This document shows positions 4,429-9,858 of a DNA stretch of 54,735 nucleotides, piece by piece. Numbering within the stretch: the stretch's first letter is position 1; the number at the start of each line of letters is the position of its first letter. This stretch comes from Bacteroidia bacterium (GTDB lineage Bacteria > Bacteroidota > Bacteroidia > J057). A model generated the notes under the pieces. The model saw nothing but the letters and a program-made list of their open reading frames with translations, was not told the origin of the DNA and did no database searches. The stretch covers positions 1 through 54,735 of the forward strand of contig JAUIKF010000056.1 of assembly GCA_030430575.1 (NCBI GenBank), read 5' to 3'. The position numbers and the translations under genes were made by a program.

Positions 4429-7400
4429 ATGACAAAAAGATCTTGTTTTTCCCTATGGGCATTAATCCTCTTAATGCCCTTCAACACCCATGCGCAGACG
4501 CTAGCACAATTAACTTCGGACTTAACCGAATACAGCCTGAACCTGGACTATGAGCAGGCTGCACGTGTCTGCCGAGAAGCGGCGGCGTGGGCTGAGGCGG
4601 AAGGGGATGTAGAGACGCAGGCGGAGATGTTGTCGCTGTTGTCGACTTGTTCGCTTCAAATGGGAGATCACAAACAGGCAAAAACCATTTTGTCTCAAAT
4701 TGATAGGCTTAATGAAAACCACTCGCTTTCGAAAAGAGCTGAAGGCATGTATCATTTGGGATTGGGGCAATATTACCTCAAGATTGGCCGCCCCGATAGC
4801 GCGCTGGGGTATGCCCAATCTGCGATGGGCCACGCATCTTTGATCGCCCAAAAATACCCTCCGATCCCTTCAGATATTCATATGCTTTTGGGAGGCTGCT
4901 ATACATGGGCTGGGGCACTACCGTTAGCGGTCAACGAAATGGAGGCTGCTCTGACAGTCGCGAAGCAAATAGGGGCTGAAAAGAGCCCTGCTTATGGCTT
5001 AATCCTTTCAGGAATGGGGTATATGCATGCGCAGCTTCAGCAATATACCCAAGCCGATCAAGAACTTTGGCGGGCGCTTGAATTGATTCAACATTCGCCT
5101 TCTCTGACTGATCGTGCCAATGTCTACAATCATTTTGCAAGCTATTTTCTCACTTATGGGGCGGGAAAGATATCTGAAAACCAAAAATCATTTGATCAAT
5201 ACACACCAGAAGTTCAAGAAATCTTTCACGATGCACAAAGCGTTTCAGAGAAATGTTTAGCCCTTCTCGAACTAGCGAATGACCCTATTTTGCTGGCGAT
5301 GGGATACATGCAATTGGCAGAGGGCCTAAGTGTAAAGGACGATCCTACCCTTACCCAAACGGCCTACCAATATTTAGAAAAGGCCAAAGACTTGATCGAA
5401 TCGCAATTGGGGAAAAATAACTACTACTATTTTATTGCCATGTTGAAACTGGGGCAGACAAAGGTGATGGAAGGTGCACCTTATTTTAATTCAGGCCAGT
5501 TGCCAGCAGCCTTAGCTGTTTATAGGGAAGCCCAACCTTTTCTCAACCAATCCATCGAATTAGCCAAGGAACTATTTGGAGATCGTAGTCCCGCAATAGG
5601 GTACCCTTTGAATATGCTGGCTACCTCGGAAGTGCAAATTGGGCTAGGGACTTATTTTCTGGGAAATGTGGAAAAAGGCATTTCAGTCCTACAACATGCC
5701 AAGGAACTATTTGATGAGACAGCCTATCATTTTGGCAAGTCAAAAGAAACGCTACCGCCTTACAATCAACCCAAAATTGACCGATTCACCCAATTCAATG
5801 CCATTCAATTTCCGCTGGATGTCAATGGAGATATATTTCGGCGGTTTCCATTTTTTGCCGAAGATACCGTGACAGCCTATAAGAACTCCCTGGCTTATTA
5901 CCTGGCAGAGTCATCCATGATTGACAGTTTTTTGCTGCGATATGGGGCACAAGCAGATCAGCTAAGCATTATCAGTTTTGCTCAAGGTGCTACTGCCGGT
6001 GCTATCGCAATGGGGCATGAACTATATCATCGAACGGGCGCATTTCATTACCTTGAAATGGCATTTGAGCAATGTGAGAAGAGTAAATCAAGCTTACTAT
6101 TGACAACGCTCAGACAAAGAAAAGCATTGAAATTCGCGGGGGTCCCGGATTCATTGATTGAATTAGAAAATCAATTGAGAGAATCATTGATTTCCAAACA
6201 GCAATTGACAGAGATCCACTTCTCTGACAGCACTAATATTGCCAATAATCAAGATTATTTGGCAACGCTGAAAGCGCATGAAAGATTGACCCAATCCATA
6301 AACGAGTCATATCCCCGCTATTACAATCAACGCCTAAACCTTAGCAAGGTACCTGCCCAAGAAGTACAATCTCGACTGGGAGTGGGCCAGGTTTTTATGG
6401 AGTTTTTTACGGTGGAAGGCGATATTTATATTTTTGCGCTGACACAGGATACCTTGATGGTAAACTATGTTCCTGGTCTAGCTGTACATTATCGCCTTGC
6501 AGACTCTCTGCTTAGCGCGATCCATCCCTCACCAAATGCAGATAGGACCGAATTATTTACCCAATACACTGATGTTGCATATTACCTGTACAAAGAATTC
6601 CTTCAACCTACCCTTAGTCAATTGGACACCGTTTCAGAACTAATCATTATTCCAGATGAAGGATTCGATGATTTTCCATTTGAATTACTGCTTACGGAGC
6701 TTCCCAGCAGCAACGAGGTAGACTATCGGCTACAGAATCTTTCTTATTTGATAGAAGAGGTTGCCATCACATATGGGTTTTCTGCAACTACTTTATTTAA
6801 TGATCTGAAACAGGCAAAAAAGGGTCATTTCTCTTATCCATTTTTTGGGCTTTCTCCAACGTTTGAGCGACATCCTTCTCAGAACAATCTCCCTGGTGCT
6901 CAGGAGGAAGTCGAAATGCTGACTGACCGCTTGGGGGGAAAAATACTGCAAAGGGAATCAGCCACACTCGATTCTTTTTTGGCCTATAGCCCACAATCTG
7001 CTATTCTCCACCTTGCTACCCATGCTGTGGCCAATAATGCAGACCCATTGTCAAGTGTCATTTATTTCTATGATACTGTGCTGACAGCAGCTCAATTGTA
7101 CGAAAAAGAGATTCCCGCTAACCTGGTAGTACTCAGTGCTTGCCAAACCCACAAAGGAGAAAATAGCGATGGAGAAGGCTTGATGAGCTTGGCTCGTGGA
7201 TTTGCTTATGCAGGGACTCCTAGCATTGTGACCACTATGTGGGATGTAGACGATGAAGAGGGGAAAAAATTGATGGAGCTATTTTATGAGCACCTACTTG
7301 ATGGAATGCCTAAACATCAAGCGCTCCGATTGGCAAAACTTAAATATTTAAGAAAAGCGGATAGGCTGCATTCACATCCAAGCAATTGGGCAACCTTGAT

Positions 7401-7515
7401 ACATATCGGGGATACCCAACCCCTAGAAAAAGACCATACAGAGGCATGGATTATTGGACTTATCATCTTTGCCGTTATTGGTATAGGGGTTTGGGTAGCT
7501 TTTGGGAAAGCTTAA
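4429..7515 (+). CDS. Exported TPR-CHAT (caspase-like) protein with C-terminal membrane anchor
   Basis: A 1028-residue protein. Residues 1-23 are a signal peptide. About 25-450 hold repeated helical hairpins of the tetratricopeptide type (for example AEGMYHLGLGQYYLKIGRPD). The C-terminal third is a CHAT domain, a relative of caspases and separases: His865 lies in LHLATHA and Cys905 in LVVLSACQT, followed by GEGLMSLARGFAYAG and VTTMWDVDD. A hydrophobic stretch near 1004-1025 precedes a short GKA tail. TPR and CHAT parts should therefore lie in the periplasm, tethered to the inner membrane. The His/Cys dyad is intact, so peptidase activity is plausible. It is convergent with the sigma/anti-sigma operon, with stop codons overlapping. 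Partner binding by the TPRs and cleavage by CHAT are inferred from family knowledge; the target is unknown. Confidence 0.85.
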   Translation: MTKRSCFSLWALILLMPFNTHAQTLAQLTSDLTEYSLNLDYEQAARVCREAAAWAEAEGDVETQAEMLSLLSTCSLQMGDHKQAKTILSQIDRLNENHSLSKRAEGMYHLGLGQYYLKIGRPDSALGYAQSAMGHASLIAQKYPPIPSDIHMLLGGCYTWAGALPLAVNEMEAALTVAKQIGAEKSPAYGLILSGMGYMHAQLQQYTQADQELWRALELIQHSPSLTDRANVYNHFASYFLTYGAGKISENQKSFDQYTPEVQEIFHDAQSVSEKCLALLELANDPILLAMGYMQLAEGLSVKDDPTLTQTAYQYLEKAKDLIESQLGKNNYYYFIAMLKLGQTKVMEGAPYFNSGQLPAALAVYREAQPFLNQSIELAKELFGDRSPAIGYPLNMLATSEVQIGLGTYFLGNVEKGISVLQHAKELFDETAYHFGKSKETLPPYNQPKIDRFTQFNAIQFPLDVNGDIFRRFPFFAEDTVTAYKNSLAYYLAESSMIDSFLLRYGAQADQLSIISFAQGATAGAIAMGHELYHRTGAFHYLEMAFEQCEKSKSSLLLTTLRQRKALKFAGVPDSLIELENQLRESLISKQQLTEIHFSDSTNIANNQDYLATLKAHERLTQSINESYPRYYNQRLNLSKVPAQEVQSRLGVGQVFMEFFTVEGDIYIFALTQDTLMVNYVPGLAVHYRLADSLLSAIHPSPNADRTELFTQYTDVAYYLYKEFLQPTLSQLDTVSELIIIPDEGFDDFPFELLLTELPSSNEVDYRLQNLSYLIEEVAITYGFSATTLFNDLKQAKKGHFSYPFFGLSPTFERHPSQNNLPGAQEEVEMLTDRLGGKILQRESATLDSFLAYSPQSAILHLATHAVANNADPLSSVIYFYDTVLTAAQLYEKEIPANLVVLSACQTHKGENSDGEGLMSLARGFAYAGTPSIVTTMWDVDDEEGKKLMELFYEHLLDGMPKHQALRLAKLKYLRKADRLHSHPSNWATLIHIGDTQPLEKDHTEAWIIGLIIFAVIGIGVWVAFGKA

Positions 7516-8351
7516 TCCTTCCTTTTCTCAATAAACATCCGATACAGCATTTCAACATCCGATTTATAAGAATCCGACACTTCTGAAGCAGCTAAATCAA
7601 CCAATAAGGCTTTACCTGTCTCCATAAGTGTTGGATCTTTGGTATGGAAGTAAATGATGATCAAGTAGAATCGGGTACGTTCGGGATAATCCCTTTGGAG
7701 GGTTGAATCTTGAAGGACGGCTATTGCATTTGGGGTGTCTTGGGCGAGGAAGTAACTTTTTGCCAATGCAAATTGTACCTTTTCATTAGTTGGATCAATG
7801 GAGGTGTATTGTTTAAAAAAATTACTTGCTGCTCGATAGTCTTTTCTATCAAACGCTTCTATTCCATTTTTTATCATATTATCCGCATCGCTCCTAGGCC
7901 TGATCCCCGGCTTCCCAAAATGTTTTTCCAAAATCACTGCTAACTCCTTCTGTGAATCCTGCCCATCCCCGCTCACCCACATCACCCCCACCAGCAGCAG
8001 CACCGCTGCTGCTACAGCCATCCACACCCACAGGTTCTGGCGTCGGCCAGTCCTAGGGCTTGTGGCATGTCCATCATCCCCCCCTCCATGGCCACTCTCA
8101 GCAGGAGGGGTCAGTCTTTCCCGCCGGAGCTTATCGAAAAGGGTGTTGAGTCTTTGAGCATCTTCCTCCTTCACAGGGGGAAGGTCTTTGGTGGAAAGGA
8201 AGTCTTCCATATCCTGGACCAGGTTATATTCCTGGGCCAGTTCTCGATCACGCGCCAAGTCCTGTAGGAAAGCTTCGCTTTCCTTTTCGCTCATCTGACC
8301 GCTGCGAAAGCGGTCGATGCGAGCCAGGTGATCGTTGGCGGGTTGACGCAT
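7512..8351 (-). CDS. Membrane anti-sigma-factor-like protein with C-terminal TPR domain
   Basis: A 279-residue single-pass membrane protein. Residues about 10-45 (RFRSGQMSEKESEAFLQDLA) match the N-terminal pattern of many ECF anti-sigma factors. A linker with a Gly/His-rich patch (SGHGGGDDGH, about 86-95) leads to a transmembrane helix at about 107-127. Residues about 155-270 form TPR-like hairpins (GIEAFDRKDYRAASNFFKQY; VQFALAKSYFLAQ). The N-terminus should be cytoplasmic and the TPR part periplasmic. The gene starts 3 bases after the sigma factor stop, so the two are surely co-transcribed, and this position is typical for an anti-sigma factor. Its stop overlaps that of the convergent TPR-CHAT gene. 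The regulatory role is inferred; no zinc-binding HxxxCxxC motif is present. Confidence 0.7.
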   Translation of the reverse strand: MRQPANDHLARIDRFRSGQMSEKESEAFLQDLARDRELAQEYNLVQDMEDFLSTKDLPPVKEEDAQRLNTLFDKLRRERLTPPAESGHGGGDDGHATSPRTGRRQNLWVWMAVAAAVLLLVGVMWVSGDGQDSQKELAVILEKHFGKPGIRPRSDADNMIKNGIEAFDRKDYRAASNFFKQYTSIDPTNEKVQFALAKSYFLAQDTPNAIAVLQDSTLQRDYPERTRFYLIIIYFHTKDPTLMETGKALLVDLAASEVSDSYKSDVEMLYRMFIEKRKD

Positions 8352-8354
8352 GTA

Positions 8355-8936
8355 TTACACTTCTATGAGTTTCAGGTATTCAGCATCATTTTTGACTAAA
8401 GTTCTCAGTTTATCCCGACAATTACTCAGCCTCTTTTTAATGTAATTGCCCTTTAACCCCATTTTTAACGCAATTTCTTTGATCGATAAGGTATGATAAT
8501 GCTTTAGCTCTAATAGTTCCTTACAATTGCCTTTCAGCTGCTGTAAGTGTTTCTCCATTACCTCAAATCGCCTTTCCTTTAACATCACTTCATCTAGACG
8601 TTTCTCATCTGGCAGCCTGTCATCCAGTGGTACATGAGTGGCTCGGCTCGCTTTTCGGATTCCATCAATGCACTTATTTCGAGCGATCGCATGTACACTA
8701 GCCATAATACTTCCTTGAAAAGGTTTTTCCGCCTTCAACTTTCGCCAAACTTCAGTTATCGCTATTTCTGCATAGTCTTCTGCGTCTTTTTGGGCACCTG
8801 GTCTTCCAGATAAATATTTGTGGACAAGCACATCGATTACCCGATTAAACAAATATTTAAACACTTCTTCCTCATCATTCAACAAGCCATTCCGGAGTTC
8901 ATCCTCTCCTAATTTGTCCTTAACCAAGTCAGCCAT
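8355..8936 (-). CDS. RNA polymerase sigma factor, sigma-70/ECF type
   Basis: A 193-residue protein with two conserved blocks. Region 2 (about 25-105) contains DAEDYAEIAITEVWRKL and MASVHAIARNKCIDGIRK, which contact core polymerase and the -10 element. Region 4 (about 135-190) contains LLELKHYHTLSIKEIALKMG, a helix-turn-helix for the -35 element. Region 3 and region 1.1 are absent, as in ECF factors. It is the first gene of a two-gene operon with the membrane anti-sigma-like protein. Upstream, a palindrome (8960-8979) with a partner copy (9021-9035) may control it. The regulon is unknown. Confidence 0.85.
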   Translation of the reverse strand: MADLVKDKLGEDELRNGLLNDEEEVFKYLFNRVIDVLVHKYLSGRPGAQKDAEDYAEIAITEVWRKLKAEKPFQGSIMASVHAIARNKCIDGIRKASRATHVPLDDRLPDEKRLDEVMLKERRFEVMEKHLQQLKGNCKELLELKHYHTLSIKEIALKMGLKGNYIKKRLSNCRDKLRTLVKNDAEYLKLIEV

Positions 8937-9126: not shown

Positions 9127-9858
9127 ATGTTACAGCAACCCTTCTGGGCGACAGGCACCCTATGCCGTGCCCTCAGCATCGCTACGCTTATCCTTTTTGG
9201 TGCCATGAATCTCATGGCCCAAAGCCCTCCCGTGACGGTCACCATGATCCCATCGTCATTTGAAGATGGTGACACTGTCGCTATGGCTCTGGCCATTGGT
9301 ACGTATGATAGTCAGGTCTCAAACGCTCTGGAGATTGAGTTTGAAATTGAATGTGATGGCTTCACCATCGATCCGGCATCCATCATAGATGCCCTCATTG
9401 CTCAGTATTCCTTTTTTGCCGATGACAACAATTGGGATTATGAATACGAGCTCCGAGATGGAAATGCCACGTTGTGGTTTCGCATCTTCCGGACAGACAA
9501 TGATCCACGGAGTGGCTGGGGCTATACCGTAACAGTCACGGATATCATCATCACCATCGATGTAATTCAGCGCAGAGCAGCAGGACCATCTGCTACGGGT
9601 ACTGCACTTCTCCCTGAAGGCCCTAATCATCCGCTAGCCATGACCATGACAGGAGGATACATAGAACTGGATGTGACGTCTCCGGTCACAGTATTGAGCG
9701 CTAGCCTTATGACCATGGAAGGCCGACAAGTGACGCTGTCTGTGGGTAAAAGTCTTCCTGTACGGATTCCTGTTTCATCTCTGAAACCTGGCCTCTATGT
9801 CCTTGTCTTGCAGACGTCGGAAGGCAGGATTCAGCGGAAAGTGGTTTTGGGGGATTAA
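9127..9858 (+). CDS. Small secreted protein, probably T9SS-sorted
   Basis: A 243-residue protein with an N-terminal hydrophobic signal (about 12-32, ending LMAQS). The central part (about 35-155) is rich in beta-strands and acidic residues (FADDNNWDYEYEL) and has a cohesin-like feel (VTMIPSSFEDGDTVAMAL), but I cannot assign a family with confidence. The last ~60 residues resemble a T9SS sorting domain (SLKPGLYVLVLQTSEGRIQRK), though the usual YPNP motif is missing. The gene is divergent from the sigma operon across an operator-like palindrome, so a shared signal is possible but unproven. Confidence 0.6.
   Translation: MLQQPFWATGTLCRALSIATLILFGAMNLMAQSPPVTVTMIPSSFEDGDTVAMALAIGTYDSQVSNALEIEFEIECDGFTIDPASIIDALIAQYSFFADDNNWDYEYELRDGNATLWFRIFRTDNDPRSGWGYTVTVTDIIITIDVIQRRAAGPSATGTALLPEGPNHPLAMTMTGGYIELDVTSPVTVLSASLMTMEGRQVTLSVGKSLPVRIPVSSLKPGLYVLVLQTSEGRIQRKVVLGD

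Follow-up and report, generated by a model that had tools for sequence, protein, structure and literature searches.

The locus analysed here occupies positions 4,429 to 8,936 of contig JAUIKF010000056.1 from a Bacteroidia bacterium (assembly GCA_030430575.1); the whole contig of 54,735 nucleotides is called the window below. It carries three genes, encoding a TPR-CHAT protein, a single-pass anti-sigma-TPR protein and an extracytoplasmic function (ECF) sigma factor (Table 1). Our comparative data suggest that these genes form one signalling module, in which the TPR-CHAT protein would act as a site-1 protease on the anti-sigma of its neighbour.

Gene content and predicted topology of the locus

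The sigma and anti-sigma genes form an operon, with the anti-sigma starting 3 bases past the sigma gene. The CHAT gene is arranged tail to tail with this operon, the 3' ends sharing 4 bases, and being convergent it lies outside the operon's transcript. The assignment of the sigma factor is based on TIGR02937 (sigma70-ECF, NCBIfam), which it matches with 54.2 bits and thus above the cut-off of 42.9. For its neighbour, the N-terminus matches NF052375 with 34.4 bits (E 2e-8), below that model's cut-off of 100, and the C-terminal part matches TPR_19 (E 3e-7). By its position after the sigma factor, its single helix and its charge bias the protein fits a membrane anti-sigma, and sigma binding is predicted; an earlier note on this DNA had described the operon in the same terms. 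A fold search with the anti-sigma model returned TPR proteins, none of them at E ≤ 0.001. PADLOC matched the CHAT protein twice, each time weakly (E 0.004 and 0.005), and the sigma and anti-sigma not at all.

Table 1. Features of the locus in window coordinates, with the basis of each assignment.
Feature	Position	Strand	Basis
TPR-CHAT protein, predicted periplasmic protease, 1028 aa	4429..7515	+	Pfam match, sequence, model
Signal-peptide-like N-terminus, about residues 1-22, end AHA|Q	4429..4494	+	sequence
Helical TPR array, about residues 23-620	4495..6288	+	TPR_12 E 1e-17; model helices
CHAT (caspase/separase-like) domain, residues 717-995	6577..7413	+	PF12770 E 6e-54
Glu827, co-varies with anti-sigma linker residue; proposed P1-Arg reader	6907..6909	+	co-variation
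Catalytic His865	7021..7023	+	invariant in alignment
Catalytic Cys905	7141..7143	+	invariant in alignment
C-terminal membrane helix, about residues 1004-1024, shortly past CHAT domain	7438..7500	+	hydropathy; model helix 1004-1027
Single-pass anti-sigma-TPR protein, 279 aa	7512..8351	-	profile matches, model mean pLDDT 80.6
Anti-sigma-like domain, presumably cytoplasmic, residues 1-80	8112..8351	-	NF052375 below cut-off; model helices 4-80; conserved in A1 profile
Anti-sigma membrane helix, residues 107-126	7974..8033	-	sequence, alignment, model, charge bias
Juxtamembrane linker with candidate cleavage site, residues 127-154	7890..7973	-	linker and full-length alignments
Anti-sigma TPR domain, predicted periplasmic, residues 155-279	7515..7889	-	TPR_19; model helices 155-278
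ECF sigma factor, 193 aa	8355..8936	-	TIGR02937 E 1e-14, PF04542 E 1e-5

Based on its CHAT fold and its His/Cys dyad, the TPR-CHAT protein is a predicted protease. The CHAT domain scores 183.8 bits against PF12770 (curated cut-off 24). For the family set, 8 of 88 CHAT hits were dropped (weak hits, other CHAT-like proteins and the anti-sigma L069_5); from the remaining 80, four were excluded as fragments or odd sequences, and 68 of the 76 left were taken up by the alignment. His865 and Cys905, which the earlier note had named as the dyad with the right numbering, are invariant among these 68 full-length members, window included, and across the 80 domains His and Cys are each present in 79. The structure model (mean pLDDT 83.3) fits this assignment: among the PDB chains matched by Foldseek, the top 23 all belong to type III-E TPR-CHAT proteins or separases. 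VIA-align ranks Csx29 first (8eex; Z 30.4, 467 residues at 5.1 Å, model residues 336-997), and the separase domain of ctSPD (5fby) aligns with Z 25.3 (319 residues at 3.8 Å, model residues 534-1002), both superpositions running through the CHAT region. When solved structures were searched by sequence with the whole CHAT alignment, the matches were dominated by TPR proteins; the CHAT domain alone retrieved six sequences, all of them type III-E CHAT proteins with weak scores (E 0.012-0.027). The transmembrane anti-sigma DdvA (8rot) also matches the CHAT model in Foldseek (E 3e-11), presumably via TPR-like helices, with a poor superposition (TM 0.22); a literature search for DdvA found no paper.

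Concerning topology, which was called with simple hydropathy thresholds instead of a trained predictor, the 76 full-length CHAT proteins show an N-terminal hydrophobic segment in 72, a C-terminal helix in 74 and a net positive tail in 71 cases. Segment and helix occur together in 70/76, window included, in comparison to 7/103 other proteins of more than 700 aa from the same loci. The end of the CHAT domain and the membrane helix are about 12 residues apart in the median (10-90% range -21 to 16), as roughly estimated from motifs. On the anti-sigma side, 41 of 42 family members are more positively charged ahead of the helix than behind it. Taken together, CHAT hydropathy and anti-sigma charge bias place the CHAT domain and the anti-sigma TPR domain, by prediction, outside the inner membrane and near to it. 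This agrees with the signal peptide, the C-terminal anchor and the non-cytoplasmic CHAT domain expected in the earlier note. Five CHAT proteins (L120, L121, L134, L138, L139) have lipobox-like N-termini by eye, with a pattern count of 3/76; as most of them also possess the C-terminal helix, this suggests anchoring at both ends.

Recurrence of the module in Bacteroidota

Paralogous copies of the three-gene module, among them this locus, recur in the family of the window, which named relatives indicate to be probably Saprospiraceae, and the module is present in other Bacteroidota too. The window's own genome (G000) contains 39 CHAT matches, 30 of them at E ≤ 1e-20. In the CHAT neighbourhoods of this and related genomes we repeatedly found an ECF sigma factor directly followed by a protein of ~250 aa whose single membrane helix lies near residue 80-110. 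In the own genome, a sigma match lies within 7 kb of 14 of the 30 CHAT domains, with 3.3 expected (P 1e-6).

To compare 13 genomes of the family, we used a profile (A1) of 42 CHAT-linked anti-sigmas with thresholds of E ≤ 1e-25 for the anti-sigma and E ≤ 1e-20 for CHAT. This yielded at least 102 anti-sigmas and 136 CHATs, the anti-sigma counts being lower bounds because scoring in the larger genomes covered a subset of the candidates (121 of 196 in G000). Per genome, both counts are tightly correlated (Pearson 0.974), and both rise with genome size (Spearman 0.74 and 0.66). A CHAT gene lies within 8 kb, start to start, of 53 of the 102 anti-sigmas; 4.2 are expected, and the maximum in 200,000 simulations was 16. 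Individual genomes reach 9/9 (G010, five contigs), 14/26 (G000), 9/15 (G009) and 5/10 (G007). These proximity statistics, together with the 14/30 of the own genome, rule out a chance neighbourhood, and the gene neighbourhood on which the earlier note had staked its idea beforehand is conserved.

Nine further genomes of the order have CHAT in six cases and an A1-type anti-sigma in none at E 1e-25. Among 40 genomes drawn across the class, profile matches at E ≤ 1e-40 are restricted to G000, G009 and one of the 38 others (G019, positions 5-227 of 252), with weaker and mostly partial matches in the remaining ones. A contig scan of genomes with P0001 alone found no relative. Besides, 41 loci from named records span Saprospiraceae, Phaeodactylibacter, Chitinophagales, Chitinophagaceae, Fulvivirga and others; 20 of them include the anti-sigma (three of these from the assembly matching G009), and several without it stop at contig ends. 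Flavisolibacter nicotianae (L268) is a named relative with the triad in convergent order, its sigma factor having been identified by eye.

The relative orientation of CHAT and anti-sigma genes is variable: the 58 pairs comprise 30 divergent, 20 convergent and 8 co-directional ones. In 20 pairs the genes lie within 150 bp of each other, and 15 of these close pairs are convergent, as in the window. A divergent arrangement is common for a regulator and its target, so the sigma factor might also have the CHAT gene as its output; the product would then be an effector which perhaps cuts other envelope proteins and is encoded beside its regulator without acting on the anti-sigma. The frequent type IX-secreted neighbours, with a Por_Secre_tail in 4 of 8 sigma-linked neighbours tested, would fit such a role as well. 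Nevertheless, the similar copy numbers of both families and the reciprocal residue co-variation described below speak against it, and we consider this explanation improbable.

Some further observations concern the surroundings of the module. An apparent CHAT-anti-sigma fusion at L069 was rejected, since the 251-aa hit is an ordinary anti-sigma with a TPR-like end. At L093 (8009-11284), a short CHAT-like protein of 599 aa, cytosolic-looking and with no signal peptide seen, is directly divergent from a pair of sigma factor and single-helix anti-sigma. Genes beside or between the module are often of surface type (PKD, DUF7619, subtilase, FGE-sulfatase-like, S74 chaperone, type IX tails), as seen near CHAT at L066, L078, L079, L085, L117, L119, L088 and L129. 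In the window itself, a gene divergent to that of the sigma factor (9127-9858) encodes an exported-looking protein of 243 aa, a possible target or partner, whose match to the type IX sorting tail PF18962 is weak (18.3 bits, under the cut-off).

A candidate cleavage site and its link to CHAT residue 827

The linker between the membrane helix and the TPR domain of the anti-sigma follows roughly the pattern [LI][FY]A..[FY]..P and then a dipeptide. In 53 of 59 sequences the first residue of this dipeptide is R (38), M (9) or L (6), and the second is mostly G (32) or S (14). R, M or L plus a small residue fall on one column in 52/59 sequences, in comparison to at most 7/59 in 25 shuffles, and an alignment-free count of [RM][GS] gives 41/59 versus a shuffled mean of 11.4. 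Of eight profile anti-sigmas beyond the 59, six carry G, S or D directly behind an R or M (L080_2, L162, L168, L172, L173, L174), and the two divergent anti-sigmas of L093 have no such dipeptide. In the window, the candidate site is Arg153-Ser154 according to the linker alignment or Arg151 according to the full-length alignment.

After collapsing identical sequences of the G009 assembly (L239, L241, L244) and omitting the six pairs without R, M or L, 53 neighbouring pairs remained, which were classed as R (38) or M/L (15) ahead of viewing the CHAT columns. Among the well-filled columns of the CHAT region, Glu827 shows the strongest association with this class (0.404 nats, family-wise p 0.001): Glu is present in 37 of 38 partners of R-type anti-sigmas and in 2 of 15 partners of the M/L type. 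Behind it rank Ser903, which precedes the catalytic Cys by two positions (family-wise p 0.06), Val901 and Asp942, none of them family-wise significant. In the reverse direction, the linker residue tops 239 anti-sigma columns for association with Glu827 (0.379; next 0.282). Agreement is found in 50 of 53 pairs; shuffling within the four largest genome groups with the others kept fixed gives a mean of 36.4 and a maximum of 48 (p 0.00005).

One has to consider whether neighbourhood and co-variation are by-products of joint duplication without any functional contact, especially since triads clearly co-descend in the close sets L068/L103 and L062/L111. However, columns with the same history perform worse: the best of 181 sigma columns reaches 0.27, and the best of 300 CHAT N-terminal columns 0.322, with Glu827 at 0.426 on the same 37 rows. 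Shared descent is also accounted for by simulating the class along the CHAT tree, where 0 of 600 runs reach Glu827 (family-wise p ≤ 0.0017; Ser903 0.15, Asp942 0.43), and by Pagel tests, which with few optimiser starts on four fixed trees (CHAT by IQ-TREE, CHAT by FastTree, sigma and anti-sigma) yield p values of 6e-6 to 2e-4 for dependent change. On the CHAT trees, the two traits change on the same branch for six of eight class changes (IQ-TREE, p 1e-7) and five of seven (FastTree, p 1e-6). As the association in addition persists despite the variable gene order, joint duplication alone is a very improbable explanation.

Co-variation extends to whole domains. From 53 sigma hits, one lacked a next gene at a contig edge (L061_0) and ten pairs were dropped by eye (not this anti-sigma type, a weak or second sigma, or without a CHAT of this family), which left 42 triads. 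Their distance matrices correlate for anti-sigma TPR versus CHAT (r = 0.455), for sigma versus anti-sigma TPR (r = 0.507, expected to be positive) and for sigma versus CHAT (r = 0.440), each with p 0.0002, a value kept under within-genome shuffling for all nine domain comparisons. When close pairs are omitted, anti-sigma TPR versus CHAT falls to 0.317-0.368 (p 0.0005), and under the strictest cut sigma versus the CHAT protein's own TPR region is only 0.033 (p 0.29). In the own genome alone (17 triads), anti-sigma TPR versus CHAT gives 0.384 (p 0.002).

Such whole-domain co-variation between TPR and CHAT is on its own no proof of cutting. CHAT might instead bind the anti-sigma TPR domain as a clamp or cofactor, leaving the site-1 cut at the R/M/L-G/S linker to another protease, for which there are precedents such as DegS acting on RseA (PMC10028731, in excerpt). 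In contrast, the dyad is invariant throughout the aligned family, and the linker residue follows a single CHAT-domain residue more closely than any sigma or CHAT-TPR column tested, which a third protease leaves unexplained. We therefore regard the clamp as unlikely, if slightly less so than the output role discussed above. The earlier note had left open whether CHAT cleaves or grips the anti-sigma TPR domain: the co-variation between the linker site and CHAT 827 points to cleaving, and the place has shifted, because the candidate site is in the linker between helix and TPR domain and not in the TPR domain itself.

In consideration of module conservation, topology, catalytic dyad, candidate site and co-variation, we assign a probability of roughly three in four to the interpretation that the three genes are one signalling module whose TPR-CHAT protein is a site-1 protease cutting the anti-sigma just outside the inner membrane; this support is comparative and derived from sequences and models. 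Several observations weigh against it. Regarding recurrence, only 52 of the 136 CHAT matches have such an anti-sigma within 8 kb. Regarding structure, TPR-only proteins are similar in whole-model Z (8jal 30.2, on the N-terminal part, model residues 40-619). The residue match has three exceptions in the 53 pairs: L061 (L with E; next to this CHAT, the contig edge holds a second sigma), L074 (M with E, genes 5.9 kb apart) and L076 (R with S). Five CHATs could be read for the six omitted linkers: the partners of K, E, V and a gap are absent from the non-E list and hence have E827, that of A has His, and the linkers V and E misfit. The phylogenetic signal is reduced outside the CHAT trees, with joint changes for only three of five class changes on the sigma tree (p 6e-4) and two of four on the anti-sigma tree (p 0.016); the CHAT tree itself has weak resolution, 14 of its 50 inner branches being starred, and a strict independent-pairs test on supported branches has one usable pair. 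In the 17 triads of the own genome, sigma versus CHAT yields 0.232 (p 0.055) and sigma versus the anti-sigma N-terminal domain only 0.118 (p 0.18). Comparison with characterised enzymes adds two further points: the Csx29 of D. ishimotonii, which cuts M|K (PMC11106740, in excerpt), has a Glu near 827 in a weak alignment, and the residue with which separase reads its P1 Arg, D2151 (PMC9729208, in excerpt), differs from the co-varying E827. Finally, a CHAT group beyond the 53 pairs has Gln at 827.

These Gln827 CHATs (L077, L080, L081, L086, L096, L097, L099, L101) share NQPQ and apparently represent a distinct group. Most are without a sigma detected in the fetched stretch; at L080 an anti-sigma with Met-Gly in its linker is located about 4 kb off. 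L097 and L101 are near type IX-secreted subtilases, reminiscent of the subtilase-CHAT context of ECF54, and both neighbours tested beside Gln827-type CHATs carry a Por_Secre_tail.

Proposed mechanism and related systems

According to our model, the N-terminal domain of the anti-sigma would hold the sigma factor at the inner membrane. The TPR-CHAT protease would be exported and then anchored in the inner membrane via its C-terminal helix, so that the catalytic domain would sit close above the membrane. A periplasmic signal, probably read by the TPRs of the CHAT protein, would trigger the protease, and the dyad would cut the short juxtamembrane linker after the conserved Arg, or Met/Leu in some paralogues. 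Position 827 would be matched to the linker residue, with Glu for Arg and mostly hydrophobic or neutral residues for Met/Leu. Once the periplasmic TPR domain is lost, a site-2 protease of the M50/RseP type would be able to cut the helix, and cytoplasmic proteases may finish the anti-sigma and free the sigma factor; the order of events and the regulon are likewise part of the model. M50 proteases for a possible second cut are encoded in the own genome, likewise in all 14 control genomes. Places to look for the signal may be the CHAT TPR array and the type IX-secreted neighbours.

The closest parallel is the type III-E CRISPR system, where Csx30 inhibits an ECF sigma factor and is itself cleaved by Csx29 (PMC10028731, in excerpt). 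Both share a TPR-CHAT protease of the same fold and, by prediction for the window module, a sigma inhibitor as substrate and an ECF sigma freed by cutting. Csx29 cut sites vary by orthologue, with L|D, M|K and A|S (excerpts of PMC11106740). Csx29 becomes active through Cas7-11 and target RNA (PMC10028731 and PMC9729208, in excerpt), whereas the protease of the window module is predicted to be exported and membrane-anchored, with a single-pass anti-sigma carrying a conserved linker site as substrate. The CHAT protein reaches 15.4 bits with the Csx29 model NF041237, far below the cut-off of 300, which rules out type III-E membership; the module would therefore work like type III-E without being filed as one. 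No Cas7-11-like gene was found beside the CHAT gene with PF03787, whose ability to detect Cas7-11 was not checked. In the own genome PF03787 gives two RAMP matches, both on contig C98 (4186-7037, frames of 264 and 513 aa), and the genome may therefore carry an ordinary type III CRISPR system; none of its CHAT matches is on this contig.

Among other systems, the proposed juxtamembrane periplasmic site-1 cut of a single-pass anti-sigma resembles the DegS-RseA-RseP cascade (PMC10028731, in excerpt). Unlike DegS, the putative site-1 enzyme is a caspase/separase-like cysteine protease that includes a TPR array, and many of the modules come with a dedicated copy. CHAT genes also adjoin ECF54 sigma factors, with proteolysis proposed; in the excerpted text of PMC8999054 (citing Casas-Pastor 2021) these occur and work without an anti-sigma, unlike the window module, and the model named there is actinobacterial (Geodermatophilus). 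Eukaryotic separase is alike in fold and cuts after Arg, and its Arg reader D2151 corresponds to Lys in one TPR-CHAT protein (PMC9729208, in excerpt). Among the open-licence papers listed there is no description of an exported CHAT protease acting with a membrane anti-sigma, and earlier work is possible.

Most of what is known about CHAT proteases comes from CRISPR (Csx29) and gasdermin defence, where they are cytoplasmic. If the proposed module is true, Bacteroidota also use the separase/caspase-like fold to trigger envelope signalling, and the paralogues number as many as about 30 per genome. The chances are even that trans-membrane signalling in one cell runs through as many as about 30 channels in parallel, every one of them equipped with a periplasmic separase-like protease, an anti-sigma and a sigma factor of its own, and that matched 827-linker pairs and CHAT-TPR recognition keep these channels partly insulated. 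Since a predicted cut residue and a proposed CHAT reader can be named, testing by point mutants is possible, and some 50 natural pairs provide material for studying how proteases are matched to their substrates. Such an array, if it exists, would give regulated intramembrane proteolysis a counterpart in the caspase family, expanded for sensing.

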